DNA from: Acorus gramineus
Lineage: Eukaryota; Streptophyta; Magnoliopsida; Acorales; Acoraceae
Assembly: GCA_030737835.1 (NCBI GenBank)
Contig: CM060856.1
Coordinates: 18,517,116 to 18,581,115 of the forward strand
Direction: 5' to 3'
Length of the DNA stretch: 64,000 nt
Under the pieces are notes generated by a model. It did not search any database and was not told the DNA's origin. It saw only the letters and a program-made list of their open reading frames with translations. How positions within the stretch are numbered: position 1 is the first letter of the stretch; each line of letters begins with the position of its first letter. The position numbers and the translations under genes were made by a program. Shown here one piece after another: positions 6,690-64,000 of the stretch.

Positions 6690-8294
6690 TGTTATATATG
6701 TGTCACTTTTTACCTTCTGGTAACCATTGGAGCATTTTGACAGTTTTTGAGTTTTTTCGTTTTTCGATCGGAACCGCTAAAATTTTAGACTGTTAGCTAT
6801 CGTCCTGAGTTTGAAGACTCCGATTAAAAATCTAACTGCATATTATGTGTCCTGGTGCCATTCCAAGTCACTCACGAAAATTTCATCGAATTCCGGTAAT
6901 GTTGCAGAATTTTGCAGTTCCGAAGCGTATACGGGTTTTGACGGAGCGAGAAGTCATTGGGAGACTTGACTTGGTCAAAGTGGGTCCATGACTTGGTCAA
7001 ATGTGTTTGGCTTTTAGTGTGGTGGGGTTGACTTAGGTCAAAGTGCACTTAGACCCACTTAAACCCTAATCAACCTAGCTTACCCTAATCTAATTTCAAG
7101 TGTGTGTGAGTGTGGTGTGTGTGTGGGGACTTAAATAGAAGTCCACGCCTAAAATGCCCACTATTCATCATCTTCCCCAATTAAATTTCTCTCTCCCCCT
7201 CTCTCTTTTTCCACCATTTAAGCTAGCTAGAGTGTTTGAAACCAAGAACACAAAGAAGAGAAAGGAAAGGTGAGCTCCCGATCTATCCCCCGGTGGTCTC
7301 GGATTCGAGTTCCCACGTGTATGATCCCCTCTCATACCCTCTTTTCTCCTCTGATTTCAGCCACCTTGAGGGCTGAAGGAGATCTTGGTGGTGGTGGTCC
7401 TTGTGGAGGTGTTTCAGTGCACGAAGAGCTCCTGATCCCCTTCCCTTCCTTACCACTCCAAGGGTAAGCTTTCTTCTTTCCTTTTCTTGCTTAGATGCAT
7501 GTTAGGAGGGTGTTTTAGGGTGTGTGGTGGCTGTTGGTGGCGGTTGGTGGTGGTTGGTAGCCATTGGTGGCCGGTGAGAGGTGGTAGGGTGGCTCGGGCA
7601 GGATGGCAGGCTGTCTCAGGTGGGCTGGCAGCGCAGGCAGCACAGGCAAGCGGGTTGGCAGGCAGGGCATGCAGAGAAGGCTGGCAGGGCACGCGCGCGT
7701 GCGCGCGGGGGGAGCAGGAGCGTACGGGTGCTGCGCACTGGGCGCCGTGCGGGGATGTGTGCGCGGGGCGCTGCGCAGAGGCGCAGTGCGTGTGCTAGCG
7801 CAGGGGGCCGCGTGCGGGTGCTGCGCGCAGGGGGCCGTGCAGGGGCACGCGCGCGGAGCGCTGCGCAGAGGCGCAGGCGTGCTTTGCGCGCGCGGTGAGG
7901 CGAGCCGGTGGTGCGCGCGGGGCGAGGCGATGGGGCGCTGGGCGAGCCGGTGGTGCGCGGGGTGAGGCGATGAGGCGCTGGGCGTGCGGGTGTGCGCGCG
8001 AGTCGCTGTGCTGGGGCGCAGTGAGCGCGCGGTGCACCTGGGGGGACTCGGCAGGGTGTCCAGGCGTGCGGGCTGTGCTCGGTAGTGCGTCTGGGCACGC
8101 GGGGCGAGGCTCGGCTGTGCGCCCGGGGCGGGTGGCCGTGCGTACGGCTGCCCGGGGGTTCGGGATTGAGTTGGGGTGCTCGGGCTCGCGTGCGTACGGG
8201 CCGTATGTACGTTTGCCCGAGTGTTGTGTATTTTTAGTGTATTTTTGGTGTATTTGTGTATTTTACTCACCAAGTTGATTACCCTGTCTTGCAG

Positions 8295-8330
8295 ATCTTG
8301 ACGGACGATCGCGCGACGACCCAGTTATTG
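8295..8330 (+). other. Conserved 36-nt block bounded by splice-like sites
   Basis: The block follows CTTGCAG and is followed directly by GTGAGTGGGAC. The same block, always exactly 36 nt with only substitutions, occurs in every LTR copy of this subfamily: 19684-19719, 21775-21810, 28458-28493, 30663-30698 (minus), 33328-33363 (minus), 56577-56612 and 62950-62985. It reads ATCTYGAC at the start and holds a near-palindromic GGTCGCGCG core. The flanks fit plant acceptor and donor consensus, so it resembles a micro-exon. Function is inference; no transcript evidence is available here. Confidence 0.6.
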
Positions 8331-9076
8331 GTGAGTGGGACAACCCAACCCAGTTGGGAGGCGCTATATGCACTTGGGCATATACCGTCCTCCCCTGGGG
8401 CACCATAGTTGATATTAACTTGTTAATATGTAATCCATGCAAGCATGATTACTGTGTAGAATGCATGCCACCCTAGACCCTGTATGTTAGGGACTTGCAC
8501 CCTTAGGATGTGTGTAAGAGCCATGCATCCTATCACCATGTTTTCATGCTAGGATGTCTCGACCTACGCATGTATCCTACTAGTTTGATTTATTAAATTA
8601 AATGTGAACTTATGACTATTATCATGCCTTAGGGAATATTAAGGGGCCTTGCGAGGTCAACATTGAGACCCGGGCTAGGGTACTCCGTGTTCCTTGTTTG
8701 GTTGTCGGGATGTCCTATATCGGGACCTCATGGTGCCCTCCCAAGGGTTCTTTTCCCAATATTATTGTAATATATGTTTCCCCGCATCTTGGTTATGCGC
8801 CCTGGTGGAATTCTGAAGAATTCAAGACATTAGAGTTGTTGAGATGTGTTGTCGGCGGATCCGAGTGGATCATATGCGTATGGATAGGCTGTTCTGTTCC
8901 CTTCGTTGGGTCCGTGTAGAGACTGCCCCAGCGTTAGAAAGGCTGTCCCGTGGAGGGCTCCCATCTGTAGGCACCTCCTGATTTGGGACGGACTGTGCTG
9001 AATGTGGGAGTGGCCAAGCGACCTACGGAGTGGGGAGAGACTATCGGTGGACCAAGGGTGACCAACAGCCTAGTCA

Positions 9077-9262
9077 GTCCCAATATCCTATGTCACCATA
9101 TTGAGGGGTGAGGGTGAGGGTGAGGGTGTGGTGGATCGACGATGCGGCGACCCACTGGATTGTGTAAGGATGATTATCAGCCTTGTAAGTCCCAATATCC
9201 TATGTCACCTATTGAGGGGTGAGGGTGAGGGTGTGGTGGTTCGGCGATGTAGCGACCCACTG
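9077..9262 (+). repeat. Tandem G-rich/hairpin units in LTR A
   Basis: Two units of about 100 bp run from TCCCAATATCCTATGTCACC through GAGGGGTGAGGGTGAGGGTG to a GTGG..CGACCCAC inverted repeat. The first unit has four GGG runs spaced by TGA, a canonical G-quadruplex pattern. Units vary in number between LTR copies (see 35792-36150). Confidence 0.8.
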
Positions 9263-9791
9263 GATTTGTGTTGTTCATGCCACTTTGAGGCTTTTGATTT
9301 GATTATTGTGGTTATTATAAATTGTGATGCATGAGTTGTGCTATTCACTGAGCGTGTAGCTCACCCCTCGCATAATATTTTTCTCCAGGGATTACGGAGG
9401 CAGACTTGAAGGAGGAGCTCCCCGAGAGACTGCACGAGTAGCGGAGTAGCGCCACGTCCCGCGAGTTTTAGAGGCCAGCAGCATCCTTTTTTATTGTATG
9501 TATATATTTCCGTGCTTGGGCACCCAGTTTGGATTGTATTTGGATGTATGTGTGTATATTGGCTCTCACAGGACATTTGATTATGTATCGAGTCTGTAGT
9601 ATGTTTTTGGATTACAGACTCAGTCTTTTAGCTTCCGCTATCTGTGTATATGTCATGTCAGCCTTGCTTTCATCTGTGTTGTCATTTTAGTTGTTGTTTA
9701 GAGTGATTTATTGATCTCCTGTATAGACTGCTGATATCATGTATACACTTGCCGCGTCCCGGGGACGGCCGCCCTGGGGCGTGACAAAAGT

Positions 9792-9803
9792 TGGTATCAG
9801 AGC
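9792..9803 (+). other. Primer binding site, initiator tRNA-Met type
   Basis: TGGTATCAGAGC lies five bases after the LTR end and is complementary to the 3' end of plant initiator methionine tRNA. This is the usual primer of Ty3/gypsy chromoviruses. The following bases (CTGGTCCTGTCAGAGCC) are shared with element C. Confidence 0.95.
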
Positions 9804-9906
9804 CTGGTCCTGTCAGAGCCAATTGTCTTCTTTTTCATAGAGATGAGTCCTAGGATTTCTATATGAGTATTCTGATCCTAGTGTCTGGTTTTCTTAGGTT
9901 GCTGAT

Positions 9907-11190
9907 ATGCCTCCTCGCAGAGGACGGCGCGGACGTGGTCCCTCTCGACCTTTGGAGGTTTTCGGACCTACCAGAGGCGAGGATGCTATTGGAGAGTCCT
10001 CAGCCGTGAGGCCAGGATCGGCGCAGGAGCCTCCTGCCCGCGGATAGCAGATTTGGTGGAGACGCAGACCAGGGCACTGGAGGCCCAGACCATAGTGTTG
10101 TCGGATCAGGCACGGGAGATTCAGGAGCTGCGGGCGGCCCGCGAGGCAGTTCCGCAGGTCCCCTTGGTGGCAGATCCACCTGTGGTACCCGATGTACCCC
10201 CAGTCCCCGTGGTGGTTCCGGCGGTCAGAGTTCAGGATCCTCAGGAGAGGGAGGTGGGGCTAGAGGCTGCAGCGCGGGTGCAGCAGAGTGGCCTCGCAGC
10301 CTTTCTGAAGCTCCACCCTCCCGAGTTCCAGGGCCAGACGGCGGATCCTCTTGCTCCAGAGCGATGGTTGATGGAGGTGGATACGATCTTCTCGACCATG
10401 CTTTGCACCGACCGCCAGCGAGTCTCCCTGGCCACTTTTATGCTAAAGGGTAGCGCCGCCGACTGGTGGGCTACTAGATCAGTGGACATCCCGGAGGGAG
10501 TGGAGCAGCTTACATGGGCGGGATTCCGGAGGTATTTCTTGGAGGAGTACTTCCCGTTCTCGACGCGCCAGATAGTGATGCAGGAGTTTGAGCAGCTGAC
10601 GCAGGGCTCTATGTCTGTCGCTGACTACTCCACACGCTTCACGAGGCTGTCCAGATTCGCCCCAGCTTTGGTGATGGACGAGGAGACGAGGTGCCGTCGT
10701 TTTGAGCTTGGTCTCAGCAGCGCCATTCGGGTGCATGTCACCTCCCAGGCATTCACGAGGTACTCTGACTTGGTGTCTCGGGCGAAGACAGTCGAGCGAG
10801 ACCTCGGGATCCTCGTGAGGGTTGCGACCCCTTCGGCAGACCAGAGACCTCCCAGGAGCCAGGACCAGGGACAGCGCAAGAAGAAGAGGCCCCGCTTTGA
10901 TCAGTTAGCGGCTGCCTCTCCTCCAGCAGATGTGGTGCCAGCGCGAGGTCCAGCACCCATCGCGGCAGTGCCAGTCCAGTCCAGGCGACCAGAGACGCGG
11001 CGCTGTTACCACTGTCAGCGCATCGGGCATATCTTGTATAATTGCCCCGATGCTGGCCGACCCCGCGTGCTGCCTCTGCAGCAGCAGCAGCAGTTACAGC
11101 AGCAGCAGTTCCAGCAGCAGCCTCAGCAACAGCAGCAGCAGCCTCAGCGCCAGCCGCAGCAGCAGCCTCAGCGTCAGTAGCAGCAGCCAC
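9907..11190 (+). pseudogene. gag: gag region of element A (fossil)
   Basis: The region starts at the ATG shared with element C (9907, MPPRRGRRGRG) after the leader. It has an N-terminal basic stretch, a capsid-like core with LKLHPPEF near 10307 and YFLEEYFPFS near 10530, then a nucleocapsid part with a CX2CX4HX4C zinc knuckle (CYHCQRIGHILYNC, about 11003-11044). A CAG-rich, glutamine-coding tail follows (11075-11180). The family assembles virus-like particles from this protein in the cytoplasm. The copy is not intact (about one or two breaks), but most of the domain order is readable. The glutamine tail is a simple-sequence expansion in gag and not a separate host gene. Confidence 0.85.
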
Positions 11191-18118: not shown

Positions 18119-21100
18119 TGTTATATATGTGTCACTTTTAACCTGCTGGTAACCGTTAGAGCGTTCTGGCAGTTTTTCGGTTTTTATCGGTTTTCGATCG
18201 GAACCGCTTATTTTTGGACTGTTAGCTATCGTCCTGAGCTAGAGGACTCCGATTGGAAATCTAACTGCATATTTGGTGTCCTGGTGCCATTTTAGACCTC
18301 TCACGAAAATTTCATCGAATTCTGGCATCGTTTGCAAAAATTCCGCAGTTCCGGGGCGTATCCGGGTTTTTAAGTCGCACATTACATAAATGGAATCTAA
18401 AAATATCTTTGCACTATTCATTGTCTTCCTCGTCGAGATCTCTCTCTCCCCTCTCCGTTTTTCTTCCTTTCAAGCCCCCTAGACCCCTCAAAATCGAAAA
18501 CCCAAAGCACGGGAAGTGTAGATCGGGTCCCGATCTATGCTCCGGTGTCTTCAAATCCGAGTTCCGACGATCCTAGCCTCCCCGACCTCCTCTCTCTCTC
18601 CTCTGTTTCGAGCCAAATTGAGGGCCGTGGTAGATCGGGGCGAAAGAGAGCCTTTGGGAAAGGTTTCGGCGCGCGGTGAGCGTTCGGTCTTCGCTTCCTC
18701 CCCTCGGTAAGGTCCTTTTCTTCACTTTTCTTGCATAGATGTATGCTAGGAGTGTGGATCTGTGTATGGGAGGAGGCCGGCGGCTGTGGGAAGCTGTCGG
18801 GGGTGGTTGGAGGTGGTCGGAAGTGGTCGGCGGCCGTGGGAGGGGTGGTTGGAGGTGCTCGGGATGGTGGGAGATGGTCTCGGGCTGCAGGGAGGGGTTC
18901 TCGGGCAGCAGGCAGAGCAGCAGCAGCGCGCAGGCGGGGTGCGCGCGGGCATGCGCGGGCGCGCGTGCGCGAGGCGTGCAAGCGGGTGTGCGCGGGTCTG
19001 GTGCGGGGTGCTGGTCGTGCTGGGCGCGCGGGACGGGCTGGCGCGAGGAGCTGGTCGCGCGGGTCCGGCGCGAGGGGCTGGCAGTGCTGGCAGCGAGCGC
19101 AGGGGGCCGGCTGGGCGTGCGCGCGTGGTGCGCGTGGAGCAGGTCGCGCGGGTGCGCCCGGAGGTGCGTGCGAGGTGCGCGCGAGGTGCGGCGAGGTGGC
19201 GGAGGTGCGTGCGAGGTGCGCGCGAGGTGCGGCGAGGTGCCGGAGGTGCGTGCGAGGTGCGCGTGAGGTGCGGCGAGGTGCCGGAGGTGCGTGCGAGGTG
19301 CGCGCGAGGTGCGGCGGGGTGCGCGGGGGGGCGTGCGGGGTGCGCGCGAGGTGGGGCAAGGTGGCGGAGGTGCGCGCGGAGTGCGCGCGAGGCGAGGCGC
19401 GGTGCCCCGGGTGGTGCGGCGGCGTGTCCAGGAGGCGGGCGGAAGCCCGGCGGTGCGCGGGGTGCGCGGGCGGAGGCGCGGCGGTGCACCCGGGCGGTCG
19501 GGTGGCCGTGCGGGTGGTTGCCGGCCGTGCGGGTAGTTGCCGGAGTGCTCGGGCTAGCGTGCGTGCGGGTCGTGTGCACGTTTGCCCGAGTGTTAGGTGT
19601 TTGTTGTGGGTTTTGGGGTATTTATTTGTGTATTTAATGATAATCGTGGATTTATACTTACCAAGTAATACCCTGTCTTGCAGATCTCGACGGACGGTCG
19701 CGCGTCGACCCGAGTTCCGGTGAGTGGGACAATCCAACCCAGTAGAGAGGTGTTATACGCACTTGGGCGTATACCGACCTCTCCTGGGGCACCGTAGATG
19801 TATATTAACCTGCAAAAAAATATGTAATCCATGCTTGTATGATTAAATTGTAGAATGCATGTTACCCTAGACTTTGCATGTTAGGGACTTGCACCCTTAG
19901 GATATGTATATGAGCCATGCAGCATGTTCCCTGGTTCCATGTTAGGAAGCCCGGCCGATGCATGTGCCCTACTAGTTTATTTATTTGATTAAATGCTAGT
20001 ATATGTTTACAATGCATGTTATAGTGAATATTATAGGGGAGGGGCCTTGCGAGGACAGCGGTGAGACCCGGGTTAGGGTACACCGTGTTCCTTGTTTGGT
20101 TGTCGGGGTGTCCTATAATGGGAACTCACGCTGCCCTCCCGAGTTTCTTTCCCCCAATGATATTAGAACGTTAGAGTTGTATGTTTGGTATGATTATTAG
20201 CATGAGTAGTGAATATTATAGGGGAGGGACCTTGCGAGGACAGCGGTGAGACCCGTGTTAGGGTACTCCGTGTTCCTTGTTTGGTTGTCGGGGTACCCTG
20301 TATCGGGAACTCACGCCGCCCTCCCGAGTTTCTTTCCCCCAGTGATATTCCAACACTGCTTTTGATTGTACATGTTCCCCGCATCTTGGTTATGCGCCCT
20401 GGAGGAACTCTGAAGAGTTCATGACATTAGAGTTGTTGAGGCGTGTAGTCGGCGGATCCGAGTGGATCATATGCGTATGGATAGGCTGTTCTGTTCCCTG
20501 CGTTGGATCCGGTGGAGGCTACCCCCAGCGTTAGACAGGGCCTTCCTGACAGAGGGCTCCCATTAGTAGGCACCTCCCGATTTGGTGACGGACTGTGCTG
20601 AATATGGGAGGAGACCAGGCGGCCTACGGAGTGGAGGGAGAGACTATCGGTGGACCAAGGGTGACCAACAGCCTAGTCAGTCCCAAAATCCTATGTCACC
20701 CGTGGTAGGGTGAGGGTGAGGGTGTAGTGGGTTGGCGATGAGCGACCTACTGGATATGTGAATGGATGATTATCAGTCCCAAAATCCTATGTCACCTTTG
20801 GAAAGGTGAGGGTGAGGGTGAAGTGGGTTGGCGATGAGCGACCTGCTGGTTTTGTTTGAGAATGATTGTAAGTCCCAATATCCTGAGTCCCTTGTTGAGG
20901 GGTAAGGGTGAGGGTATGTTCTGGATTATGGAAAATTGTGGATTAGAATGGATTAATATGTTGTGGTCAATATTGTCTGTGATGCATGGGTTGTGCCATT
21001 CACTGAGCGTGTGGCTCACCCCTCGCATATGTTTTTCCCCAGTTGCCACTGAGCCTGAGCTGGAGCCGGAGCAGCAGTTGGAGCTTTCCGAGGGATTTCT

Positions 21101-21608
21101 TCAGTAGCGGAGCAGCGCTACGTCCGCGAGTACCAGAGGCTATCAGCATCCCTTTCCTTGGCTGTATGTATTTTATTTCCGTGCTTGGCACGTGTCTGGT
21201 ATATGTTCAGTTGTATATTTGTGTATATTGGCTCTCACAGGACGTATGATTGTGTATCGAGTCTGTAGAATGTTTATTCACAGATTCAGTCTTTTGCTTC
21301 CGCTATATTGTATATATATTATGTCAGCCCTATTTGATATGTGTTGTCATTTTATTTGTGGTTTAGAGTCCATGTATATTGGCTCTCACAGGACGTATGA
21401 TTGTGTATTGAGTCTGTAACATGTTTTGGGTTACAGACTCAGTTTTAGCTTCCGCTATTTTGTGTATATATTATGTCAGCCTTGTTTGATATCTGTGTTG
21501 TCATTTTTATCTGTGGTTTAGAGTATATGTGTTTGACCTCATGTGTAGGCCTCTGATATGATATATACACCTGCCGCGTCCCGGGGACGGCCGCCCTGGG
21601 GCGTGACA
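18119..21608 (+). mobile_element. 3' LTR of element B
   Basis: This LTR opens TGTTATATATG right after the polypurine tract and ends GGGGCGTGACA. It belongs to the subfamily with a palindrome near the start (18519-18537, TAGATCGGG-T-CCCGATCTA) and with two copies of the GGGGCCTTGCGAGG..GTTCCTTGTTTGG box (20040 and 20225). Donor GGTAAGG is near 18707, the GC-rich tract at 18880-19560, the 36-nt block at 19684-19719, G-rich units at 20690-20910 and the TGAGC hairpin near 21004. It is followed without spacer by the interior of another LTR (21609), as expected if B had inserted into the 3' LTR of A. Confidence 0.88.
18880..19560 (+). repeat. CpG-rich GAGGTGCG repeat tract in LTR B
   Basis: Repeats of GAGGTGCGTGCGAGGTGCG with variants run head to tail, strongest at 19150-19330. 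Open frames of 175 to 330 codons cross it in all plus frames, with compositions dominated by Arg, Ala, Gly and Cys, a hallmark of low-complexity GC-rich DNA and not of a protein. Confidence 0.85.
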
Positions 21609-23262
21609 CGGGTGGCCGTGCGTACGGCTGCCCGGGGGTTCGGGATTGAGTTGGGGTGCTCGGACTCGCATGCGTACGGGCCGTATGTACGTTTGCCCGA
21701 GTGTTGTGTATTTTTAGTGTATTTTTTGTGTATTTGTGTATTTTACTCACCGAGTTGATTACCCTGTCTTGCAGATCTTGACGGACGGTCACGCGACGAC
21801 CCGGTTATTGGTGAGTGGGACAACCCAACCCAGTTGGGAGGCGCTATATGCACTTGGGCGTATACCGTCCTCCCCTGGGGCACCACAGTTGATATTAACT
21901 TATTAAAATGTAATCCATGCAAGCATGATTAGTGTGTAGAATGCATGCCACCCTAGACCCTATATGTTAGGGACTTGCACCCTCAGGATATGAGTAAGAG
22001 CCATGCATCCTGTCACCCTGTTCTCATGCTAGGAAGCCTCGACCTATGCATGTGTCCTACTAGTTTGATTTATTAAATTAAATGTGAACTTATGACTATT
22101 ATCATGCCTTAGGGAATATTAAGGGGCCTTGCGAGGTCAACATTGAGACCCGGGCTAGGGTACTCCGTGTTCCTTGTTTGGTTGTCGGGATGTCCTATAT
22201 CAGGACCTCATGGTGCCCTCCCAAGGGTTCTTTTCCCAATATTATTGTAATATATGTTTCCCCGCATCTTGGTTATGCGCCCTGGAGGAATTCTGAAGAA
22301 TTCAAGACATTAGAGTTGTTGAGATGTGTTGTCGGCGGATCCGAGTGGATCATATGCGTATGGATAGGCTGTTCTGTTCCCTTCGTTGGATCCGTGTAGA
22401 GACTGCCCCAGCGTTAGAAAGGCTGTCCCGTGGAGGGCTCCCATCAGTAGGCACCTCCTGATTTGGGATGGACTGTGCTGAATGTGGGAGTGGCCAAGCG
22501 GCCTACGGAGTGGAGGAGAGACTATCGGTGGACCAAGGGTGACCAACAGCTTAGTCAGTCCCAATATCCTATGTCACCATATTGAGGGGTGAGGGTGAGG
22601 GTGTGGTGGGTCGGCGATGTGGCGACCCACTGGATTTGTGTATGGATGATTATCAGCCTTGTAAGTCCCAATATCCTATGTCACCTATTGAGGGGTGAGG
22701 GTGAGGGTGTGGTGGTTCGGCGATGTAGCGACCCACTGGATTTGTGTTGTTCATGCCACTTTGAGGCTTTTGATTTGATTATTGTGGTTAATATAAATTG
22801 TGATGCATGGGTTGTGCTTTTCACTGAGCGTGTGGCTCACCCCTCGCATAACATTTTTCTCCAGGGATTACGGAGGCGGACTTGAAGGAGGAGCTCCCCG
22901 AGAGACTGCACCAGTAGCGGAGTAGCGCCACGTCCCGCAAGTTTTAGAGGCCATTAGCATCCTTCTTGATTGTATGTATATATTTTTGTGCTTGGGCACC
23001 CAGTTTGGATTGTATTTGGATTTATGTGTGTATATTGGCTCTCACATGACATTTGATTTTGTATCGAGTCTGTAGTATGTTTTTGGATTATGGACTCAGT
23101 CTTTTAGCTTCCGCTATCTGTGTATATATCATGTCAGCCTTGCTTTCATCTATGTTGTCATTATAATTGTTGTTTAGAGTGATTTATTGATCTCCTGTAT
23201 AGACTGCTGATATCATGTATACACTTGCCGCGTCCCGGGGACGGCCGCCCTGGGGCGTGACA
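21609..23262 (+). mobile_element. 3' part of the 3' LTR of element A
   Basis: The sequence begins inside the LTR, equivalent to 8129 in the 5' LTR of A, and runs to the family end GGGGCGTGACA at 23262. It has the single GGGGCCTTGCGAGG box (22125), the 36-nt block (21775-21810), two G-rich units (22560-22740) and the TGAGC hairpin. It is closer to the 5' LTR at 6690-9786 than to the adjoining LTR of B. The flank TTTGT after 23262 nearly matches TTTGC before 6690, which ties both to one insertion. Confidence 0.85.
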
Positions 23263-26916: not shown

Positions 26917-29137
26917 TGTTATATATGTGTCACTTTTAACCTTCTGGTCACCATTGGGACATTCTGGCAGTTTTTCGGGTTTTTTCATTTTTCGATCGGA
27001 ACCGCTAAAATTTTGGACTGTTAGCTATCGTCCTGTGTTTGAGGACTCCGATTGAAAATCTAACTACATATTATGTGTCCTGGTGCCATTCCAAGCCACT
27101 CACGAAAAATTCATTGAATTTCGGTAATGTTTTAGAATTTTGCAGTTTCGTTGCGTATCTGGGTTTTGATCGAGCGAGAAGTCATTGGGAGACTTGACTT
27201 TGTCAAAGTGGGCCCCATGACTTGGTCAAATGTGTTTGGATTTTAGTGTGGTTGGGTTGACTAGGGTCAAACCACACTTAAGCCTCCCTAATGCTAGCTT
27301 AAACCCTAATTAACCTAGCTTAGCCTAATCTAAGTGTGGGGATTATATATAAGTGAAGCTAAAATATCTTCCTCCACTATTCATCATCTTCCCCAATTGA
27401 TTTTCTCTCTCTCCCTCTCTTTAAAACCTTCTTTTGACCTAGTTCTTGAGGTTGAAACCAAAAACCCAAAGAAGAGAAAGGTTAGATCTTGTCCCGATCT
27501 ATCTTCCGGTGGTCTCGGATTCGAGTTCCCACTTGTTTGACCCCTTCTCACGCCCTCTTTTCTCCTCTGATTTCAGCCATCTTGAGGGCTGAAGGAGATC
27601 GTGGTGGTGGTGGTCCTTGAAGAGGTGTTTCGGTGCACGGAGAGCAAACGAACTTCCCTTCCTTCCTTTCCTTCCTTGGGTAAGCTCTTTTTCCTTCCTT
27701 CTCTTGCTTAGATGCATGTTAGGAGGGTGGTTTTGAGTGCTGGTGGCTGTTGGTGGCGGTTGGAGGCCATTGGTGGCCGGTGAGAGGTGGTAGGGTGGCT
27801 CGGGCAGGATGGCAGGCCGGCTCGGGTAGGCTGGCAGCGCAGGCAGCACAGGCAGCACAGCAGGCGGGCTAGCAGGCAGGACGGGCAGAGCAGGCTGGCA
27901 GGGCAGGCGCTCGGGTGGAGCAGGAGCGTGCGGGTGCTGCGCGCTGGGCGCCGTGCGCGGGGCGCTGCGCAGAGGCGCAGTGCGGGCGTGCGCAAGGGAC
28001 TGCGTGCGGATGCTGCGTGCAGGGCGCCGTGCGGGGGCGTGCCCGCAGAGCGCTGCGCAGAGGCGCAGGCGTGCGATGCGCGCGCGGTGAGGCGAGCCGG
28101 TGGTGCGCGCGGGGTGCGCGCGGGGCGAGGCGATGAGGCGCTGGGTGTGCGGGTGTGCGCGCGAGTCACTGCGCTGGGGCGTAGTGAGCGCGCGGTGCAC
28201 CCGGGGGGACTCGACAGGGTGTCCGGGCGTGCGGGCTGGGCTCGACAGTGCGTCTGGGCGCGCGGGCCGGGGCTCGGCTGTGCGCTCGGGGCGGGTGGCC
28301 GTGCGTACGGCTGCCCGGGGGTTCGGGAGTGAGTCGGGGTGCTCGGGCTCGTGTGCGTACGGGCCGTATGTACGTTTGCCCGAGTGTTGTGTATTTTTAG
28401 TGTATTTTTGGTATATTTGTGTATTTTACTCACCTAGTTGATTACCCTGTCTTGCAGATCTTGACGGACGGCCACGCGACGACCCGGTTATTTGTGAGTG
28501 GGACAATCCAACCCAGTTGGGAGGCGCTATATGCACTTGGGCGTATACCGTCCTCCCCTGGGGCACCGCAGTTGATATTAACTTGTTAACATGTAATCCA
28601 TGCAAGCATGATTAGTATGTAGAATGCATGCCACCCTAGACTTTGTATGTTAGGGACTTGCACCCTTAGGATATGTGTAAGAGTCATGCATCCTGTCACC
28701 CTGTTCTCATGCTAGGAAGCCTCGACCTATGCATGTGTCCTACTAGTTTGATTTATTAAATTAAATGTGAACTTATGACTATTATCATGCCTTAGGGAAT
28801 ATTAAGGGGCCTTGCGAGGTCAACATTGAGACCCGGGCTAGGGTACTCCGTGTTCCTTGTTTGGTTGTCGGGATGTCCTATATCGGGACCTCATGGTGCC
28901 CTCCCAAGGGTTCTTTTCCCGATAATATTATATTATATGTTTCTCCGCATCTTGGTTATGTGCCCTGGAGGAATTCTGAAGAATTCAAGACATTAGAGTT
29001 GTAGAGATGTGTTGTCGGCGGATCCGAGTGGATCATATGCGTATGGATAGGCTGTTCTGTTCCCTTCGTTGGATCCGTGTAGAGACTGCCCCAGCGTTAG
29101 AAAGGCTGTCCTGTGGAGGGCTCCCATCAGTAGGCAC

Positions 29138-32100
29138 TGTCACGCCCCAGGGCCGGCCGACCCCGGGACGCGGCAGGTGTATATATGATATCAGTAACAA
29201 GAGTTCAATAACATACTCACACAACAGCTAAAATGACAATACAGATAAAAGCAGGGCTGACATAATATATACACCAAATGCGGAAGCTAAAAAGACTGAA
29301 TATGTAATCAAAACATACTACAGACTCGATACATAATCATATGTCCTGTGAGAGCCAATATATACAAAGACATCCAAATAAAACACAAACACGTGCCCAA
29401 GCACGGAATATAATACATACAAGCAAAAGGAATGCTGATAGCCTCTGATACTCGCGGGACGTGGCGCTACTCCGCTACTGATGAAGCCCCTCGGGGAGCT
29501 CCTCCTCCAGATCCAACTCAGATGACTCTGGAGAAAAATATTATGCGAGGGGTGAGCCACACGCTCAGTGAACAGCACGACCCATGCATCACAATTTATA
29601 TTAACCACAACCAGATATTATTAATCCACAATCACATTACTCAAGCCACAAAATGGCAACAACTCCACAAACCAGTGGGTCGCTCCTGCCAACCCACTAC
29701 ACCCTCACCCTCACCTCTCAATGGGTGACCAAGGATATTGGGACTAACTACACAAAACCAGCGGGTCGCTACCGCCAACCCGCTACACCCTCACCCTCAC
29801 CCTCACTGGGTGACCAAGGATATTGGGACTTACAATCCAGTGGGTCGCCACATCGCCGGCCCACCATACCCTCACCCTCACCCACAATAGGTGACCTAGG
29901 CTCTTGGGACTGACTAGGCTGTTGGTCACCCTTGGTCCACCGATAGTCTCTCCCCACTCCGTAGGTCGTTTGGCCACTCCCACATTCAGCACAGTCCTTC
30001 TACCAAATCAGGAGGCGCCTACTGATGGGAGCCCCTGCACGGGACAACCTTTCCAACGCCGGGGTAGTCTCTACACGGATCCAATGAAGGGAACAGAACA
30101 GCCTATCCATCGCATACGATCCACTCGGATCCGTAGACAACACATCCTAACAACTCTGGTGACATGAATTCTTTAGAATTCCTCCAGGGCGCATAACCAA
30201 GATGCGGGGAACATGCATAATAGTTATAACAAGGTTGGAATATTAACGGGGAAAGAATCCTTGGGAGGGCAGCGTGAGGTCCCGATATAGGACATCCCGA
30301 CAACCAAACAAGGAACATGGAGTACCCTAGCCCGGGTCTCACCGCTGTCCTCGCGAGGCCCCTCCCCTATGATATTCGCTAAAACAGGCTAATAATCACA
30401 TGCTCGCATTTTATTTAAATAAATTAAACTAAATGGGAACATGCATCGGTCGGGGCTTTCCTAGCATGGAAACATGATAACAGGGTGCTAAGGGTATAAG
30501 TCCCTAGCATACAAATCTAGGGTGGCATGCATACTACAGATTATCATGCTTTCATAGCTTTTCATATCAACAGGTTAATATTTACTATGGTGCCCCAGGG
30601 GAGGACGGTACACACCCAAGTGCATGTAACGCCTCCCTACTGGGTTGGATCGTCCCACTCACCGGAGATCGGGTCGTCGCGCGACCGTCCGTCAAGATCT
30701 GCAAGACAGAGTACCAACTTGGTGAGTAAAAATCCATAAACACATCGAAAATACTCTAAAATACCCAACACTCGGATAACGTACATACGGCCCGTACACA
30801 CACGTATCCGGGCATCCCGACTCACTCCCGAACCCACCGGCAACCACCCGCACGGCCACCGCCCCCGGATGTGCCGCCGCGCCTCAGCCCGCGCACCTAG
30901 GCGCACCGCCGGGCCCCTGCCCGCATGCCTGGACCCGCAACCGAGCCACCCGGTGCGCCGCGCGCCCACTACGCCCCGCCGCAGCAGCCCGTGCGCATCC
31001 CGCACTCCCCGCGCTGACCCGCGAGCACACCGCACGCCCCGCGCTGACCCGCGAGCACACCGCACGCCCCGCGCGCCCAGCGCCTCGCCCCGCGCACACC
31101 CCGCGCGCACCGCCAGCCTCTACCCGTGCGCACTCCGCGCGCACCACCAGCTCCGCTCCGCGCGCACCCCGCGCGCACCACCAGCTCCGCCCAGCACCCG
31201 CGCGCACCCGCGCGCACGCACCCGCGCGCGACTGCGCGCCCAACTGCGCCCGCCAGCGCCCAGCGCCCAGCACCCGCGCCCAGCGCCCCGCGCCCAGCAC
31301 CCAGCTCCATCCGCGCGCACGAGTGCGCGCGCCCTGCCATCTGCTCCGCCTGCTGCACTGCCTACCTGCCAGCCTACTCGGGACAGCCTGCCAGCCCGCC
31401 CGGGACAGCCAACCACCACTCCGACGGCCACCAACCGCCTCCAACCGCCACCAACAGCACTCCGACGGCCACCCACAGCCGCTGACCACCACCCAACCCC
31501 AAATCCACCCCCCTAACATACATCTATGGAAGGAAAGAGAGGAAAAAGGGCTTACCAAGGGGAGGAAGGGATGTCCGGTTGCTCTCCGCGCACCGAAACC
31601 TTTCCCCAAAGACCTCCAACGCCGGGATCTCTCTCGGCCTTCGAAATGGCCCAAATCAGGGAGAAGAGAGGGGGGATGGTGTCACGCCCCAGGGTGGCCC
31701 TCCCCGGGACGCGGCAAGTGTATATATAATATCAGAATCTACACAGGAGGTCAATAATATATCATACACAAACAACTAGAATGATACACATGCAACAAAG
31801 GGGCTGACATGATATATACACCAAATGCGAAAGCAAAAGACTGAATCTGTAAATAAACATTCTACAGACTCGATACTCAATCATCTGTCCTGTGAGAGCC
31901 AATATACACAAATACAACTGAACATATACAAACACGTGCCAAGCACGGAAATCAAATACATACAGTCAAGAAGGGATGCTGATAACCTCTGGCACTCGCA
32001 GAACGTGGCGCTGCTCCGCTACTGAAGGAATCCCTCGGAAAGCTCCAACTGCTGCTCCGGCTCTAGCTCAGGCTCAGTGACCACTGGGGAAAAACATATG

Positions 32101-35100
32101 CGAGGGGTGAGCCACACGCTCAGTGAACAGCACAACCCATGCATCACAGACAATATTTACCACAATTCCATTATTTATCCAGCCTCTAAGACATAACAAC
32201 ATAATCCAGTGGTTCGTACTTCGCCGAACCACCACACCCTCACCCTCACCCATCAATGGGTGACATAGGCTATTGGGACTGATAATCATCCAACCACAAA
32301 TCCAGTAGGTCGCTCATCGCCAACCCACTACACCCTCACCCTCACCCTACCACGGGTGACATAGGATTTTGGGACTGACTAGGCTGTTGGTCACCCTTGG
32401 TCCACCGATAGTCTCTCCTCCACTCCGTAGGCCGCTTGGTCTCCACCCACAACTTCAGCACAGTCCGTCACAAAAATCGGGAGGCGCCTACTGATGTGGG
32501 TCCTCCGAAGGACGGCCTTTCTAACGCTGGGGCAGTCTCTACCGGATCCAACGAAGAGAACAGAACAGCCTATCCATACGCATATGATCCACTCGGATCC
32601 GCCAACAACACATCTCTACAACTCAAATGTCATGAACTCTTCAGAGTTCCTCCAGGGCGCATAACCACGATGCGGGGAAATAAGCACAATAAAAGCAAGG
32701 TTGTAATATCATTGGGGGAAAGAACTCGGGAGGGCGGCGTGAGTTCCCGTTATAGGATACCCCGACAACCAAACAAGGAACACGGAGTACCCTAACCCGG
32801 GTCTCACCGCTGTCCTCGCAAGGCCCCTCCCCTATAATATTCACTAACATGCTAATAAACATACCAATCATACAACATTATTTATAATATTATTGGGACT
32901 AGAAACCTTGGGAGGGCAGCATGAGGTCCCGATACAGGACATCCCGACAACCAAACAAGGAACACGGAGTACCCTAACACGGGTCTCAATGTTGACCTCG
33001 CAAGGCTCCTCCCTATAATATTATCTAAGGCATGCGATTTAACATACACTAGCATTTAATTTAATAAATAAACTAGTAGGACGCATGCGTAGGCCGAGGT
33101 TTCCTAGCATGAAAATAGGGGGACATGGTGCGTGGCTCTCACACCTATCCTATGGGTGCAAGTCCCTAGCATAAAAGCATAGGGTAGCATGCATTCTGTA
33201 TTTAAAATCATGCTCACATGCAATACATATTACTACAGGTTAATATAATCCACGGTGCCCCAGGAGAGGTCGGTATACGCCCAAGTGCGTATAACGCCTC
33301 TCTACTGGGTTGGATTGTCCCACTCACCGGTATCTGGGTCGTCGCGCGACCGTCCGTCCAGATCTGCAAGACAGACATTCAATATGGTGAGAACAATACA
33401 TAAATACTCTAAAAATACCCAAACATACAAAACCCACAACTAAAACACCTAACACTCGGGCAAACGTGCATACGACCCGCACGCACACTAGCCCGAGCAC
33501 CCCCGGCAACCACCCGCACGGCCGCCCGACCGCCCGGGTGCACCGCCGCGCCTCAGCCAACGCACCCCGCGCACCGCCGGACCTCCCGGGTGCACCGCGC
33601 GCCCCCCTGCGCCCCAGCGCAGCCGCCCGTGCACACCCCGCACGCCTCGCGCTGGCCCACGAGCACCCCGCACGCCCCGCGCGAAGCGCCTCGCCCCGCG
33701 CGCACCCCGCGCGCACCACCTCGCCCCGCGCGCACCCCGCGTGCACCACCTCGCTCTGCGCGCACCCCGGGCGCACCACCTCGCTCTACCCGCGCGCACC
33801 ACCCGCGCCTCAGCCCAGCGCCCGGTATCCGCGGCCCAGCACCCGACGCTCAACGCCCAGCACCCGGGACCCTCACCCAGCGCCCACGCGCACGCACACG
33901 CAACACGCGCCCAGCGCGCCTGGCAGCACGCGCCCAGCGCGCCTGCCAGCATGCCCACGCTGCTGCCCGCGTTGCCTGCCTGCAAGCGTCGCCGAGTGGC
34001 CCGAGCACCGTTCGCCTGTACGCCCGGCACTGCTCGCCTGATGCCCGAGCACCTCCTGCCCTGCTCGCCTGCGCGCCCAGCCTGCCAGCCCGGCCTGCCC
34101 GCGCGCACAGCCCACAGCCTGCCTACCCGCATGCCTCTCCCTGCACCCCCCCCCGAGCGCACGCCCGCGCGCGCACCCGCGCGCACGCGCTCGCGCGCCC
34201 GGCAACCTAGTGCACTTGCTCCTAGCCTACCCGAGCTAGCCCTGCCAGCCTGCCCAGCGCGCACGCCCAACCCTGCTGGCCCCCAGCGCCAGACGAGTGC
34301 CCGCACGCCCAGCCTGCTGGCCCCCAGCACCGCCCGAGCGCACGCACGCGCGCACGCCCGCGCCCACGCGCGCGCGCGCTCGCGCCAACCCCTGCGCCTT
34401 TACCACCCTGCGCTGCTGCCCTGCCCGAGACAGCAGCCCGCCAGCCCGAGCTGCACGCCTGCCAGCCCGAGCTCCTCTACCACCCACCTCCGACCACCAC
34501 CACAGCCTCCGACCGCCTCCCACAGCCCTCCGGCGGCCACCCACCGCCGCCAACCTCCTCCCAACCCCATTTCCACCCTCCTAGCATACATCTAAGCAAG
34601 AAAGAGAGGGAAAAGAGGCTTACCAAGGGGAGGAAAGGAAATCCGGTTGCTCTCCGCGCACCGAAACCTCTCCCAAAAGGTTTCCAACGCCCGGATCTAC
34701 CTCCACCACCGAGATGGCTCAAATCAGGGACGAAGAGAGGGCGGACGGAGGGGAAAATCTCGCCGGAATTGGGATTTGAAACCACCGGGGTGTAGATCGG
34801 GACCCGATCTACACTTCCTAGGTTTTGGGTTTTAAGCTTTGAGGGGTCTAAGGGCCTCAAAAGCAAGAAAAACGGAGGAGAGGAGAGAGAGGGCTCAAGG
34901 TAGGAGATGATGAATAGTGCCAGATATTTTTAGCTCACCTCTTATATAGCGAGCGACTTAAAAACCCAGATACGCCCCGGAACTGTGAAATTTCAGAAAC
35001 GTTGCCGGAATTCAATGAAATTTTCGTGAGAGGCCTAAAATGGCGCCAGGACACCAAATATACAGTTAGATTTCCAATCGGAGTCCTCTAACTCTGGACG

Positions 35101-38286: not shown

Positions 38287-38328
<42 letters not shown>

Positions 38329-38580: not shown

Positions 38581-38585
38581 TGGAT

Positions 38586-38619
<34 letters not shown>

Positions 38620-55128: not shown

Positions 55129-58100
55129 TGTTATATATGTGTCACTTTTAACCTGTTGGTAACCGTTAGAGCGTCCTGGCAGTTTTAAAAATTTTTAGGG
55201 TTTTTGGTCGGAACCGCATAATTTCAGACTGTTAGCTATCGTCTGAGCTAGAGGACTCCGATTGGAAATCTGACTGCATATTTGGTGTCCTGGTGCCATT
55301 TCTGACCTCCCACGAAAATTTCATCGAATTCTGGCATCGTTTGCAAAAATTTCGCAGTTCCGGGGCGTATCCGGGTTTTAAGTGACTTGTTATAAAAGGA
55401 AATCAAATAAAACAAAAATCACTATTCATCGTCTCTCCCGACGTGATCTCTCTCTCCTCTCCTCCGTTTTTCTTCCGTTTGAGCCCCCTCCACCCCTCGA
55501 AATCGAAAACCCAAAGCACGGGAAGTGTAGATCGGGTCCCGATCTACGCTCCGGTGTCTTCAAATCCGAATTCCGACGACTCTAGCCACTCCGTCCCCCT
55601 CTCTTTGTCCTCTGATTTGGTCCATTTTGAGGGCCGTGGTAGATCGGGGCGAAAGAGAGCCGTTGTGAAAGGTTTCGGCGCGCGGAGAGCGTCCGGACTT
55701 CGCTCCCCTCGGTAAGGTCCTTTCCTTCACTTTTCTTGCATAGATGTATGCTAGGAGTGTGGATTTGTGTATGAGGGGTGGTCGGCGGCTGTGGGAGGCT
55801 GTCGGGGGTGGTTGGAGGTGGTCGGAAGTGGTCGGCGGCCGTGGGAGGGGCGGTTGGAGGTGCTCGGGCTGCAGGGGGTGTTCTCGGGCAGCAGGCAGAG
55901 CAGCAGCAGCGCCAGGTCGGGTGCGCGCGGGCAGGCGCGCGTGCGTGCGCGGGCGCGCGTACGCGCGGCGTGCGCGCGGGCCTGGTGCAGGGTGCTGGTC
56001 GTGCTGGGCGAGCAGAAGCTGGTGCTGGGCGAGCAGAGGCTGCTGCGCGAGGTGGCGCGCGTGGAGCAGGTCGCGCGGGTGGTGCTGCGCGAGGTGGCGC
56101 GCGTGGAGCAGGTGCGCGCGGAGGTGCTGGCCGAGGTGCTGGACGCGCGAGGTGCTGGCGAGGGGCTGGCCGAGGTGCTGGCCGGGTGCTGGGGCGCGCG
56201 CGGAGGAGGCGCGGGGCAAGGAGCCGTGCGCGAGGCGTGCGCGAGGCGTGCGCGAGGTGCGGCGAGGTGCGTGCGAGGTGCGCGCGAGGTGCGGCGAGGT
56301 GGCGGAGGTGCGCGCGGGGTGCGCGCGAGGCGGGGCACTGCGTGCGGGGGCGCGCGGGGTGCTCGCGGACCGGCGCGAGGCGTGCGGGGCCCGCGGTGGC
56401 GCGTCCGGGCGGTGGCCGACCGTGCGGGTGGTTGCCGGGGGCCGTGCGGGTGGTTGTCGAGGCCGCGGGTAGTTGTTGGGGAGGTGTTGGATGCTTGTTG
56501 TGGGTTTTGGGGTGTTTATTTATGTATTTAATGATAATTGTGGATTAATACTTACCAAATAATACCTGTCTTGCAGATCTCGACAGACGGTCGCGCGTCG
56601 ACCCAGATACTGGTGAGTGGGACAATCCAACCCAGTCGAGAGGTGTTATACGCACTTGGGCGTATACCGACCTCTCCTGGGGCGTCTTGGATGAATATTA
56701 ACCTGCAATAATATGTATCCACGATTGTATAATTTATGTGTAGAATGCATGCTTCCCTAGTCTTTGCATGTTAGGGACTTGCCCCTTAGGATATGCATAT
56801 GAGCCTTGCAGCATGTCCCCTGTTTACATGCTAGGAAACCCGGCCTATGCATGCGTCCTACTAGTTTTATTTATTAAATTAAATACTAGTATCTGTTGAA
56901 TTGCATGTTATAGTGATTATTTTAGGGGAGGGGCCTTGCGAGGACAGCGGTGAGACCCGGGTTAGGGTACACCGTGTTCCTTGTTTGGTTGTCGGAGCGT
57001 CCTATAACGGGAACTCACGCTGCCCTCCCGAGTTGCTTTCCCCCAAGAATATTTCACCATGTTATAACCTTATGCATGTTCCCCGCATCGTAGTTATGCG
57101 CCCTGGTGGGTTCTGAGGAATTCAGAACGTTAGAGTTGTATGTTTGGTATGATTATTAGCATGAGTAGTGAATATTATAGGGGAGGGACCTTGCGAGGAC
57201 AGCGGTGAGACCCGTGTTAGGGTACTCCGTGTTCCTTGTTTGGTTGTCGGGGTACCCTGTATCGGGAACTCACGCCGCCCTCCCGAGTTTCTTTCCCCCA
57301 GTGGTATTCCAACACTGCTTTTGATTGTACTGTTTCCCCGCATCTTGGTTATGCGCGCTGGAGGAACTCTGAAGAGTTCATGACATTTGAGTTGGAGAGA
57401 TGCGTTGTCGGCGGATCCGAGTGGATCATATGCGATGGATAGGCTGTTCTGTTGCCCTGCGTTGGATCCTTTAGAGACTACCTCGGCGTTAGACAGGTTG
57501 TCCCGTGCAGGGGCTCCCACTAGTAGGCGCCTCCTGGTTTGATGAAGGACTGTGCTGAACATGGGAGTGGCCAAACAACCGCGGAGTGAGGAGAGACTAT
57601 CGGTGGACCAAGGGTGACCAACAGCCTAGTCAGTCCCAAAATCCTATGTCACCCGTGGTAGGGTGAGGGTGAGGGTGTAGTGGGTTGTCGATGAGCGACC
57701 TACTGGTTGTGAATGTTTATCAGTCCCAAAATCCTATGTCACCTTTGGAAAGGTGAGGGTGAGGGTGTAGTGGGTTGGCGATAAGCGACCTGCTGGTTTG
57801 TTTATGGATGTTTGTTAGTCCCAACATCCTGAGTCCCCTGTTGAGGGGTAAGGGTGAGGGTATGATCTGGGTTATGGAAATTGTGGATTAGAATGGATTA
57901 ATATGTTGTGGTCAATATTGTCTGTGATGCATGGGTTGTGCCATTCACTGAGCGTGTGGCTCACCCCTCGCATATGTTTTTCCCCAGTTGCCACTGAGCT
58001 GGAGCCGGAGCAGCAGTTGGAGCTTTCCGAGGGATTCCTTCAGTAGCGGAGCAGCGCTACGTCCGCGAGTGCCAGAGGCTATCAGCATCCCTTTTCTTGG

Positions 58101-58381: not shown

Positions 58382-58386
58382 AAAGT

Positions 58387-58398
58387 TGGTATCAGAGC
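58387..58398 (+). other. Primer binding site of element C, initiator tRNA-Met type
   Basis: TGGTATCAGAGC follows the LTR by five bases, as in element A, and matches the initiator methionine tRNA 3' end. Confidence 0.95.
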
Positions 58399-58500
58399 CT
58401 GGTCCTGTCAGAGCCAATAGTCTTCCTTTCGTAGAAGTGAGTCCTAGGATTTCGAGATGAGTATTCTGATCCTAGTGTCTGGTTTTCTTAGGGTGCTGAT

Positions 58501-61522: not shown

Positions 61523-64000
61523 TGTTATATATGTGTCACTTTTAACCTGTTGATAACCGTTAGAGCGCCTGGCGTTTTAAAATTTTTAGGGTTTTTGATC
61601 GGAACCGCATAATTTCAGACTGTTAGCTATCGTCTGAGCTAGAGGACTCCGATTGAAAATCTAATTGCATATTTGGTGTCCTGGTGCCATTTCTGACCTC
61701 CCACGAAAATTTCATTGAATTCCGGCATCGTTTGCAAAAATTTTCCAGTTCCGGGGCGTATCCGGGTTTTTAAGTCGCGCTCTACTTAAAAGAAATCAAA
61801 AATCACCTCGTCACTATTCATTGTCTCTCCCGACGTGATTCTCTCTCCCTCTCCTCCGTTTTTCTTCCGTTTGAGCCCCCTCCACCCCTCGAAATCGAAA
61901 ACCCAAAGCACGGGAAGTGTAGATCGGGTCCCGATCTACACACCGGTGTCTTCAAATCCGAATTCCGACGACTTTAGCCTCCCCCGTCCCCCTCTCTTCC
62001 TCTGTTTTGGCCCATTTGGGGTGGTAGATCGGGGCGTGAGAAGGCTTTTGGGAAGGGTTTCGGCGCGTGGAGAGCGTCCGGACTTCGCTCCCTCCCCTCG
62101 GTAAGCCTTCTTTCCCTCCTTTTTCTTGCTTAGATGAATGCTAGGGAGGGGTTTTTGTGTTTGGGGGTGGTCGGAGGCTGTGGGGGTCGTCGGGGGTGGT
62201 CGGGGTGGTTGGAAGTGGTGGTGGTCGGGGTGGGGGGGCGTGGGGTGCTCGGGCTGCGGGGTCGTCCGGGCCAAGCAGCAGCAGCAGCAGCAGCGCCAGG
62301 TCGGGTGCGCGCGGGCAGGCGCGCGTGCGTGCGCGGGCGCGCGCGCGGCGTGCGCGCGAGGGCGCGCGGGCCTGGTGCAGGGTGCTGGTCGTGCTGGGCG
62401 AGCAGAGGCTGGTGCTGGGCGAGCAGGGCTGCTGCGCGAGGTGGCGCGCGTGGAGCAGGTCGCGCGGGTGGTGCTGCGCGAGGTGGCGCGCGTGGAGCAG
62501 GTGCGCGCGGAGGTGCTGGCCGAGGTGCTGGACGCGCGAGGTGCTGGCGAGGTGGCCGAGGTGCTGGCGGGTGTTGGGGCGCGCGCGGAGGAGGCGCGGG
62601 GTGCGCGAGGCGTGCGCGAGGCGTGCGCGAGGTGCGGCGAGGTCGTGCGAGGTGCGCGCGAGGTGCGGCGAGGTGGCGGAGGTGCGCGCGGGGTGCGCGC
62701 GAGGCGGGGCACTGCGTGCGGGGGCGCGCGGGGTGCTCGCGGACCGGCGCGAGGCGTGCGGGGCCCGCGGTGGCGCGTCCGGGCGGTGGCCGACCGTGCG
62801 GGTGGTTGCCAGGGGCCGTGCGGGTGGTTGCCGAGGCCGCGGGTAGTTGTTGGGGAGGTGTTGGATGCTTGTTGTGGGTTTGGGGTGTTTATTTATGTAT
62901 TTAATGATAATTGTGGATTAATACTTACCAAATAATACCTGTCTTGCAGATCTCGACAGACGGTCGCGCGTCGACCCAGATACTGGTGAGTGGGACAATC
63001 CAACCCAGTCGAGAGGTGTTATACGCACTTGGGCGTATACCGACCTCTCCTGGGGCGTCTTGGATGAATATTAACCTGCAATAATATGTATCCATGATTG
63101 TATAATTTATGTGTAGAATGCATGCTTCCCTAGTCTTTGCATGTTAGGGACTTGCCCCTTAGGATATGCATATGAGCCTTGCAGCATGTCCCCTGTTTAC
63201 ATGCTAGGAAACCCGGCCTATGCATGTGTCCTACTAGTTTTATTTATTAAATTAAATACTAGTATCTGTTGAATTGCATGTTATAGTGATTATTTTAGGG
63301 GAGGGGCCTTGCGAGGACAGCGGTGAGACCCGGGTTAGGGTACACCGTGTTCCTTGTTTGGTTGTCGGAGCGTCCTATAACGGGAACTCACGCTGCCCTC
63401 CCGAGTTGCTTTCCCCCAAGAATATTTCACCATGTTATAACCTTATGCATGTTCCCCGCATCGTAGTTATGCGCCCTGGTGGGTTCTGAGGAATTCAGAA
63501 CGTTAGAGTTGTATGTTTGGTATGATTATTAGCATGAGTAGTGAATATTATAGGGGAGGGACCTTGCGAGGACAGCGGTGAGACCCGTGTTAGGGTACTC
63601 CGTGTTCCTTGTTTGGTTGTCGGGGTACCCTGTATCGGGAACTCACGCCGCCCTCCCGAGTTTCTTTCCCCCAGTGGTATTCCAACACTGCTTTTGATTG
63701 TACTGTTTCCCCGCATCTTGGATATGCGCCCTGGAGGAACTCTGAAGAGTTCATGACATTGAGTTGGAGAGATGCGTTGTCGGCGGATCCGAGTGGATCA
63801 TATGCGATGGATAGGCTGTTCTGTTGCCCTGCGTTGGATCCTTTAGAGACTACCTCGGCGTTAGACAGGTTGTCCCGTGCAGGGGCTCCCACTAGTAGGC
63901 GCCTCCTGGTTTGATGAAGGACTGTGCTGAACATGGGAGTGGCCAAACAACCGCGGAGTGAGGAGAGACTATCGGTGGACTAAGGGTGACCAACAGCCTA
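61523..64000 (+). mobile_element. 3' LTR of element C, cut by the window end
   Basis: The LTR opens TGTTATATATG after the polypurine tract. It has the 25-bp palindrome GTGTAGATCGGG-T-CCCGATCTACAC (61917-61941), donor GGTAAGC at 62101, GC-rich tract 62230-62840, 36-nt block 62950-62985 and both GGGGCCTTGCGAGG-type boxes (63302 and 63555). From about 62290 onward it is almost identical to the 5' LTR; before that it differs clearly (roughly 7% plus length changes), so the pair is unevenly diverged. Confidence 0.9.

Follow-up and report, generated by a model that had tools for sequence, protein, structure and literature searches.

The long terminal repeats (LTRs) of a Ty3/gypsy retrotransposon of Acorus gramineus appear, from the comparison of many copies, to contain real introns, the clearest case being intron 1, which has been lost at its splice sites in copies scattered over the tree of the family. 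The element was studied in a stretch of 64,000 nucleotides (nt) of this plant (assembly GCA_030737835.1, contig CM060856.1, positions 18,517,116 to 18,581,115 of the forward strand; "the window"), which carries many copies of one LTR retrotransposon group, and in the genome, of which 398.6 Mb in 137 contigs were searched. The LTR at 6690-9786 is called the window copy, and L-numbers such as L026 denote individual genome copies whose DNA was compared. The reading favored here, which we consider probable, is that the LTR carries a multi-exon leader and that the element divides its RNA in a retrovirus-like manner between a spliced, AUG-free gag mRNA and an unspliced RNA used for copying. It is argued from the conserved anatomy of the leader, from the loss of intron 1 on several branches (and of intron 0 in at least one copy), from the placement of the ATGs of the window copy within introns and from a conserved RNA hairpin. 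The original prediction, made from the window, had proposed two introns in the LTR leader; introns are indeed supported, intron 1 by splice-site loss and intron 2 indirectly, and their number is probably four, here numbered 0 to 3, with exons E0 to E3 in front of them (Table 1).

Loss of introns 0 and 1 at their splice sites

The evidence for intron 1 came from copies of the 36-nt block (exon 2) that lack the A before the last G of the acceptor. There are 49 of these genome-wide, compared with 6345 copies carrying TTGCAG by a similar pattern, and 30 of the 49 were examined: 17 are fusions of exon 1 to exon 2 (junction ...CTCCCCTTG/ATCTTGACGG and relatives), 12 are point mutations of the acceptor and one is another deletion (L023). 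In 12 of the 17 fusions the exon end, matched over 12-24 nt, directly precedes a GT donor in another fetched copy; in the other five (L009, L025, L032, L034 and L038) the end is similar with no matched donor in the fetched DNA, and these were judged to be fusions by their likeness to the others. Intron 0 is also exactly absent from L026 (compare L067), and L034 and L036 lack it too, with a consistent junction, while in L025 this stretch is shortened, not exactly.

A tree of 39 copies was used to follow the distribution of the loss, taking in 16 intron-1-less copies, four without a matched donor among them, and leaving out L034. The intron-1-less label requires 11 changes on this tree, eight of them forced by well-supported branches, and labels shuffled on the same tree require 12.6 on average, i.e., the label is hardly clustered, and the losses were therefore most likely repeated. 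The copies L012 and L013 lie about 5.1 kb apart, as do L032 and L033, and L013 and L032 stand directly behind a polypurine tract (PPT), so that each pair looks like the two LTRs of a single element. Loss of the intron from both members of such pairs would be predicted if both LTRs are copied from a spliced RNA of the repeat and unique 5′ (R-U5) region. The loss of intron 1 at splice sites, in apparent 5′ and 3′ LTRs alike, thus argues for a spliceosomal intron within R-U5.

It could be proposed instead that the intron-1-less copies are ordinary DNA deletions, or the descendants of one deletion, and say nothing on splicing. The deletion in L023, which ends at the block without being a splice product, and the five fusions without a matched donor would fit this, but in 12 of the 18 deletions the start coincides exactly with an exon end that is followed by GT in another copy, and L023 is the only one of the 18 that plainly starts at another place. 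The loss affects exon-1 ends of both the CTTG and the TTGG type, and the at least eight forced changes on the tree and the exact absence of intron 0 in L026 likewise speak against this explanation, which is very improbable.

The body of intron 1 (7525-8160 and its equivalents) is a GC-rich tract with short tandem repeats and long open frames on both strands, the frames being likely due to composition and not to genes.

A leader without AUG codons

In the window copy, E0, E1, E2 and E3 together measure 357 nt and contain no ATG. All 51 ATGs between the putative transcription start and gag fall in the four proposed introns (1, 8, 32 and 10 in introns 0 to 3), and the next ATG is that of gag itself at 9907. 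The same tendency was seen in other copies when observed ATGs were compared with the numbers expected from first-order resampling, where the copies are related and the counts therefore not independent: 11 against 72 in E0 and E1 (39 copies, including intron 0 where present), 4 against 19 in E2 (63 copies) and 0 against 22 in the first 66 nt of exon 3 (53 copies), compared with 173 against 199 in intron 1 (23 copies) and 1859 against 1778 in intron 2 (53 copies).

The first ATG past E3 lies at a near-constant place within GTATGT in 49 of 54 copies, and an acceptor, CTGGTTTTCTTAG/G, is found 9 nt before the gag ATG in all five copies that reach gag; in L064 the gag ATG itself is altered. The GTATGT context of that first ATG and the acceptor before gag suggest a fourth intron (9496-9897), the removal of which would remove the primer-binding site (PBS) as well.

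The putative intron 2 and a hairpin behind its donor

The donor and acceptor of intron 2 are conserved across copies, and the reading frame matches across it. Its splicing is suggested indirectly, by these conserved sites, by the ATG distribution and by phase.

Several groups of genome matches that might have recorded the loss of intron 2 were rejected. Twelve matches of one junction pattern proved, by their matched text, to be mutated copies or one deletion, and the 16 matches of another comprised small deletions and copies with mutations or shifts, apart from one sequence that is unrelated. Thirteen exon-3 matches without an acceptor at the usual place were also considered: none of the 12 that were fetched is a splice junction, the exon start being shortened or, in L075, a stretch between repeats having been deleted, and the thirteenth was judged from its matched text alone.

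Just inside intron 2, the RNA of 60 copies can form a covarying hairpin (8356-8394). Its score reached z = -11.7 against 40 column shuffles, whereas the structure scores were weak in five other parts of intron 2 (z -1.6 to -2.4), and 97.4% of the cells in the 60 sequences are paired, falling to 35-70% when the structure is slid along the alignment. Double changes occur in 7 of 14 pairs (3.8 in shuffles), and 42 compensatory cells were counted (16.3 in shuffles). A search of Rfam over 6600-10200 gave no match at the gathering threshold. Retroviral packaging signals are located behind the leader donor, in the RNA that keeps that intron, and the hairpin is accordingly placed to be a candidate packaging or dimerisation signal. 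Two further blocks of intron 2 (8643-8720 and 8850-8890) are highly conserved, with identity up to 0.97 and little predicted structure.

A proposed division of the transcript

From these observations the following pathway is proposed. Transcription would begin near 7159, and the spliceosome would remove introns 0, 1 and 2, and probably also intron 3 with the PBS inside it, joining an AUG-free leader of about 357 nt to the start of gag, so that the mRNA would have no AUG ahead of that of gag. RNA left unspliced or spliced only in part would retain both the PBS and the hairpin behind the exon-2 donor and would be reverse-transcribed as a pool of its own, the hairpin acting in packaging or dimerisation; where intron 0, intron 1 or both had been removed from such RNA, new LTRs without those introns would result.

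Several observations weigh against this pathway. The count of label changes on the tree may be too high owing to gene conversion between LTRs. The depletion of ATGs is not confined to the exons, since a milder one (247 observed, 335 expected, in 34 copies) extends over the region 90-390 nt past the start of exon 3. As for intron 3, the remaining 5 of the 54 copies read ATATGT at the GTATGT site, the donor is preceded by T instead of AG, and GTATGTAT could instead be part of a poly(A) signal. The covariation of the hairpin is not seen in every measure, further pair types numbering 19 against 17.8 in shuffles, with 105 of 500 shuffles as high. No genome copy lacking intron 2 was found with three junction patterns, and exon 2 or exon 3 joined to the start of gag gave no genome match, results that an absence of splicing would produce as well. 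The last two results can be accommodated: a failure to package RNA without the hairpin would leave no intron-2-less copies, as was seen, and RNAs joined to gag would lack the PBS, so that the absence of such joins is expected and is no test of splicing.

In an alternative reading, intron 1 (and intron 0) would be spliced while the supposed introns 2 and 3 are retained; translation of gag would then depend on shunting, reinitiation or internal entry, and GTATGT would belong to the poly(A) region that ends R. The lack of genome copies without intron 2 or intron 3 favors it, as do the strongly structured RNA where intron 2 starts and the GTATGTAT run, which may form part of a poly(A) signal. Against it stand the conserved donor and acceptor of intron 2 with a frame matching across both, the freedom of E3 from ATGs up to GTATGT in 49 of 54 copies and the acceptor in front of gag in five of five, and it is on balance unlikely, the spliced, AUG-free leader being preferred.

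The 36-nt exon and the acidic frame

The arrangement TTGCAG-36 nt-GTGAGT, which the original prediction had reported for eight copies in the window, was found there exactly eight times and in none of 100 shuffles, and the sites it had named (donor 7464, exon 2 at 8295-8330, exon 3 from 9389) are correct. Genome-wide, TTGCAGAT followed after 20-48 nt by GTGAGTGGGAC gave 9506 matches (blocks of 22-50 nt). Among the first 100 of these listed, the block is 36 nt long in 91, 37 in five, 35 in three and 29 in one; the spacing is thus largely fixed, as had been claimed, but the exceptions do not come in threes and weigh against the frame argument that had been made for exon 2. Two apparent LTR pairs (G000:C1:18286260 with 18292566, and C1:20054081 with 20060111) share a 37-nt or 35-nt exon 2, which suggests that out-of-phase copies have transposed. 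When 34 copies were aligned, a sample picked by a pattern within the block and hence biased, no gap fell in the block in 31 of the 33 copies compared with the window copy; of 181 segments of 36 nt, 7, the block among them, are equally or more free of gaps. The block is unusually rigid, yet not unique. Exon 3, taken from CCAG to TAG, is 53, 59 or 65 nt long in seven window copies, as predicted; six were measured directly (Table 1), and the seventh, of 53 nt and beginning near 36271, was read from the sequence.

A small acidic peptide had also been suggested for these two exons, which in the phase then named read LDGRSRDDP..VATEPELEPEQQLELSEGFLQ, ..VSSESDLEEELPEGLHQ or ..VITEADLKEELPERLHQ, each ending at a stop. 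Among the frames of 52 copies the usual end is lost in eight (L013, L018, L019, L023, L054, L061, L062 and L068), and L057 is one codon shorter. That exons 2 and 3 are translated as a small acidic C-terminus (LDGRSRDDP..V..E....LxExL.Q and a stop), with the start in another exon or at a non-AUG codon, has somewhat less than an even chance, exon 3 being the stronger half. The length of exon 3 is in phase in 64 of 67 counted listing rows, but its length classes are steps of 6-bp units prone to slippage. Shared polymorphisms of exon 3 in the named frame run 11 synonymous to 9 (p = 0.0055) and 3 to 1 (p = 0.056), with p > 0.06 in the five other frames and no p under 0.1 in control regions. In typed listing rows the synonymous counts are 12 to 14 and 3 to 1 (expected, 0.26-0.27); for the other two sense frames they are 4 to 24 and 5 to 18, with 0 to 5 and 1 to 4, respectively. 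A bias of exon 3 toward synonymous changes, the check that had been proposed, is thus confined to the named frame.

The signal in exon 2 is weak. Local copies gave 9 to 9 (p = 0.04) with a stricter cut and 9 to 14 (p = 0.17) with a looser one, but the pattern used to pick these copies permits variation mostly at wobble sites, which biases the sample. In 59 typed haplotypes chosen without a wobble-favoring pattern, the minor alleles of sites 3-29 fall 67/19/13 on third, second and first positions, which would suit translation, but there is no synonymous excess (17 to 41), and the four-fold sites 14 and 20 are nearly invariant while 5, 11, 17 and 29 vary, a period of 6 rather than 3. The block-length exceptions of 35, 37 and 29 nt also count against a translated exon 2. 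As for a start, no AUG was found in front of the frame, in keeping with the original prediction, which had found no conserved start codon. A complete reading frame with a start codon, of the kind of CERV or Rev, was not found in E0-E3, to which the search for one was limited, the element's other exons not having been searched for junctions: the window copy has no ATG there and other copies have few. Exon 1 was rejected as a general solution for the start of the peptide, since its tail shows no coding signal and since, of 25 copies in which the E2-E3 frame is intact, 7 carry a stop in the last 20 codons of exon 1. An antisense reading of exon 3 was also rejected, being weaker than sense (one antisense frame with p = 0.067), and the intron ends, as read from the sequence, are not GT-AG on that strand.

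A more elaborate possibility is an accessory protein whose C-terminus would be encoded by exons 2 and 3 of the 3′ LTR. Its mRNA would start in the element body and be spliced over a long range, and the acidic, leucine-spaced tail of the protein would regulate the export or use of unspliced RNA like CERV in Cer1. This is quite improbable; if it were true, the LTR would be promoter, leader and part of a gene at once.

Relation to known elements

In human T-cell leukemia virus, bovine leukemia virus and foamy virus the donor lies in R of the LTR, and the major retroviral donor stands upstream of the packaging signal, which spliced RNAs lack. In the element described here, too, a donor is located upstream of a structured RNA element, but that element is preceded by two complete introns and the 36-nt exon within a single LTR, and the role of its hairpin is a proposed one. 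The intron of Ogre, a plant element of the Ty3/gypsy Tat lineage, is located between coding domains, whereas the introns of this element lie in the 5′ leader and LTR.

According to passages of a 2025 review (PMC12786077), plant LTR elements are generally without introns, Ogre, with its functional intron, and EVADE being exceptions, and BARE1 is cited. For BARE1, an alternative intron in gag is described in part of PMC3735527, and excerpts of PMC7730604 report spliced isoforms of two sunflower elements in direct RNA reads. In EVD/EVADE and BARE1, both plant Ty1/copia elements, splicing likewise separates translated from genomic RNA (PMC12786077 and PMC3735527, passages); their intron is part of the gag-pol coding sequence and produces a frameshift, whereas here whole introns would lie in the LTR leader of a Ty3/gypsy element. 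Donor-like sites are present in gag/pol of this element too. Another Ty3/gypsy element with a spliced accessory mRNA is Cer1 of Caenorhabditis elegans, where, according to passages of PMC10309623, that mRNA encodes CERV, a 517-amino-acid protein with exons from gag and a 3′ open reading frame, required for the export of unspliced RNA; here there is only an acidic, C-terminal-like frame, whose start is not known. Passages of these four papers describe no whole introns inside an LTR, and no description of them in a plant LTR was found among the titles and abstract openings of the open-access literature, which does not establish their absence from print. Spliced LTR retroelements are thus already known, and whole introns inside the LTR would be a new variation.

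For plants it is not settled how the transcript of an LTR retrotransposon is shared out between translation and copying. Here, in an LTR with thousands of copies, what appear to be several introns and a 36-nt exon come together with a leader free of AUG codons and a hairpin behind a donor, and the intron-less copies would record which introns were gone from the RNA that was reverse-transcribed. The idea of split RNA pools thereby becomes testable by ordinary RNA sequencing, and genome sequence alone could, as a general method, reveal splicing in retrotransposon leaders.

The element and its copies in the window

The element is a Ty3/gypsy LTR retrotransposon. Its LTR ends are TGTTAT...TGACA, a PBS follows the LTR and a PPT, AAGGGGGGAATAA, stands in front of 3′ LTRs. 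Behind the LTR at 6690-9786, Pfam domains follow in the order Retrotrans_gag, Ty3_capsid, RVP_2, RVT_1, RT_RNaseH and Integrase_H2C2, i.e., gag, protease, reverse transcriptase, RNase H and the zinc-binding domain of integrase in gypsy order; the integrase core had no match in the scanned frames, which stop at 13829.

Table 1. Features of the window copy and further copies of exon 2 (window positions)
Feature	Position	Strand	Remarks
LTR (TGTTATATATG...GCGTGACA) of Ty3/gypsy element	6690..9786	+	start set by PPT directly before TGTTATATATG in 3′ LTR copies
TATA-like box (TTAAATAG)	7131..7138	+	putative; read from sequence
Transcription start (CACTATTCATC)	near 7159	+	putative
Exon E0	7159..7269	+	no ATG
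Intron 0 (GTGAGC...TTTCAG)	7270..7360	+	absent in some copies; missing from original prediction
Exon E1	7361..7463	+	no ATG
Intron 1 (GTAAGC...TTGCAG)	7464..8294	+	GC-rich; lost at splice sites in genome copies
Micro-exon E2, 36 nt	8295..8330	+	motif and genome-wide copies
Intron 2 (GTGAGT...TCTCCAG), putative	8331..9388	+	conserved sites; ATG density not reduced
Covarying RNA hairpin	8356..8394	+	just inside intron 2; conserved across 60 copies
Exon E3	9389..9495	+	no ATG; includes acidic open segment 9389-9441 ending TAG
Candidate intron 3 (GTATGT...TTTTCTTAG)	9496..9897	+	would hold distal U5, LTR end and PBS
PBS TGGTATCAGAGC	9792-9803		behind LTR 6690-9786
gag ATG	9907..9909	+	first ATG of fully spliced leader
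E2 copy	19684..19719	+	E3 21043-21107, GTATGT 21164
E2 copy	21775..21810	+	E3 22865-22917, GTATGT 22972
E2 copy	28458..28493	+	no E3 found behind
E2 copy	30663..30698	-	E3 29527-29475
E2 copy	33328..33363	-	E3 32083-32019
E2 copy	56577..56612	+	E3 57988-58046, GTATGT 58103
E2 copy	62950..62985	+	window stops before its E3

A diverged LTR at about 1.5-5.1 kb (1500-5110) shows the same layout by eye, with AAG/GTGAGC at 2043, CTTGCAG/ATCTCG in front of a block from 2972 that would be 39 nt long if ended by ATGAGT, and TTTTCAG/G at 4728 in the position of exon 3, which is itself degraded. This one degraded copy suggests that the donor and acceptor layout predates the present families.

Two internal regions, 58384-61522 and 16282-18118, are apparently non-autonomous, most of pol being missing; by eye they contain gag, about 1 kb of other sequence, a reverse transcriptase fragment and a chromodomain-like end. 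The short spacing of the intron-1-less pair L012/L013 resembles that of these regions. A tandem array at 37262-38695, with AT-rich units of about 170/258 bp, is seemingly unrelated to the LTRs.

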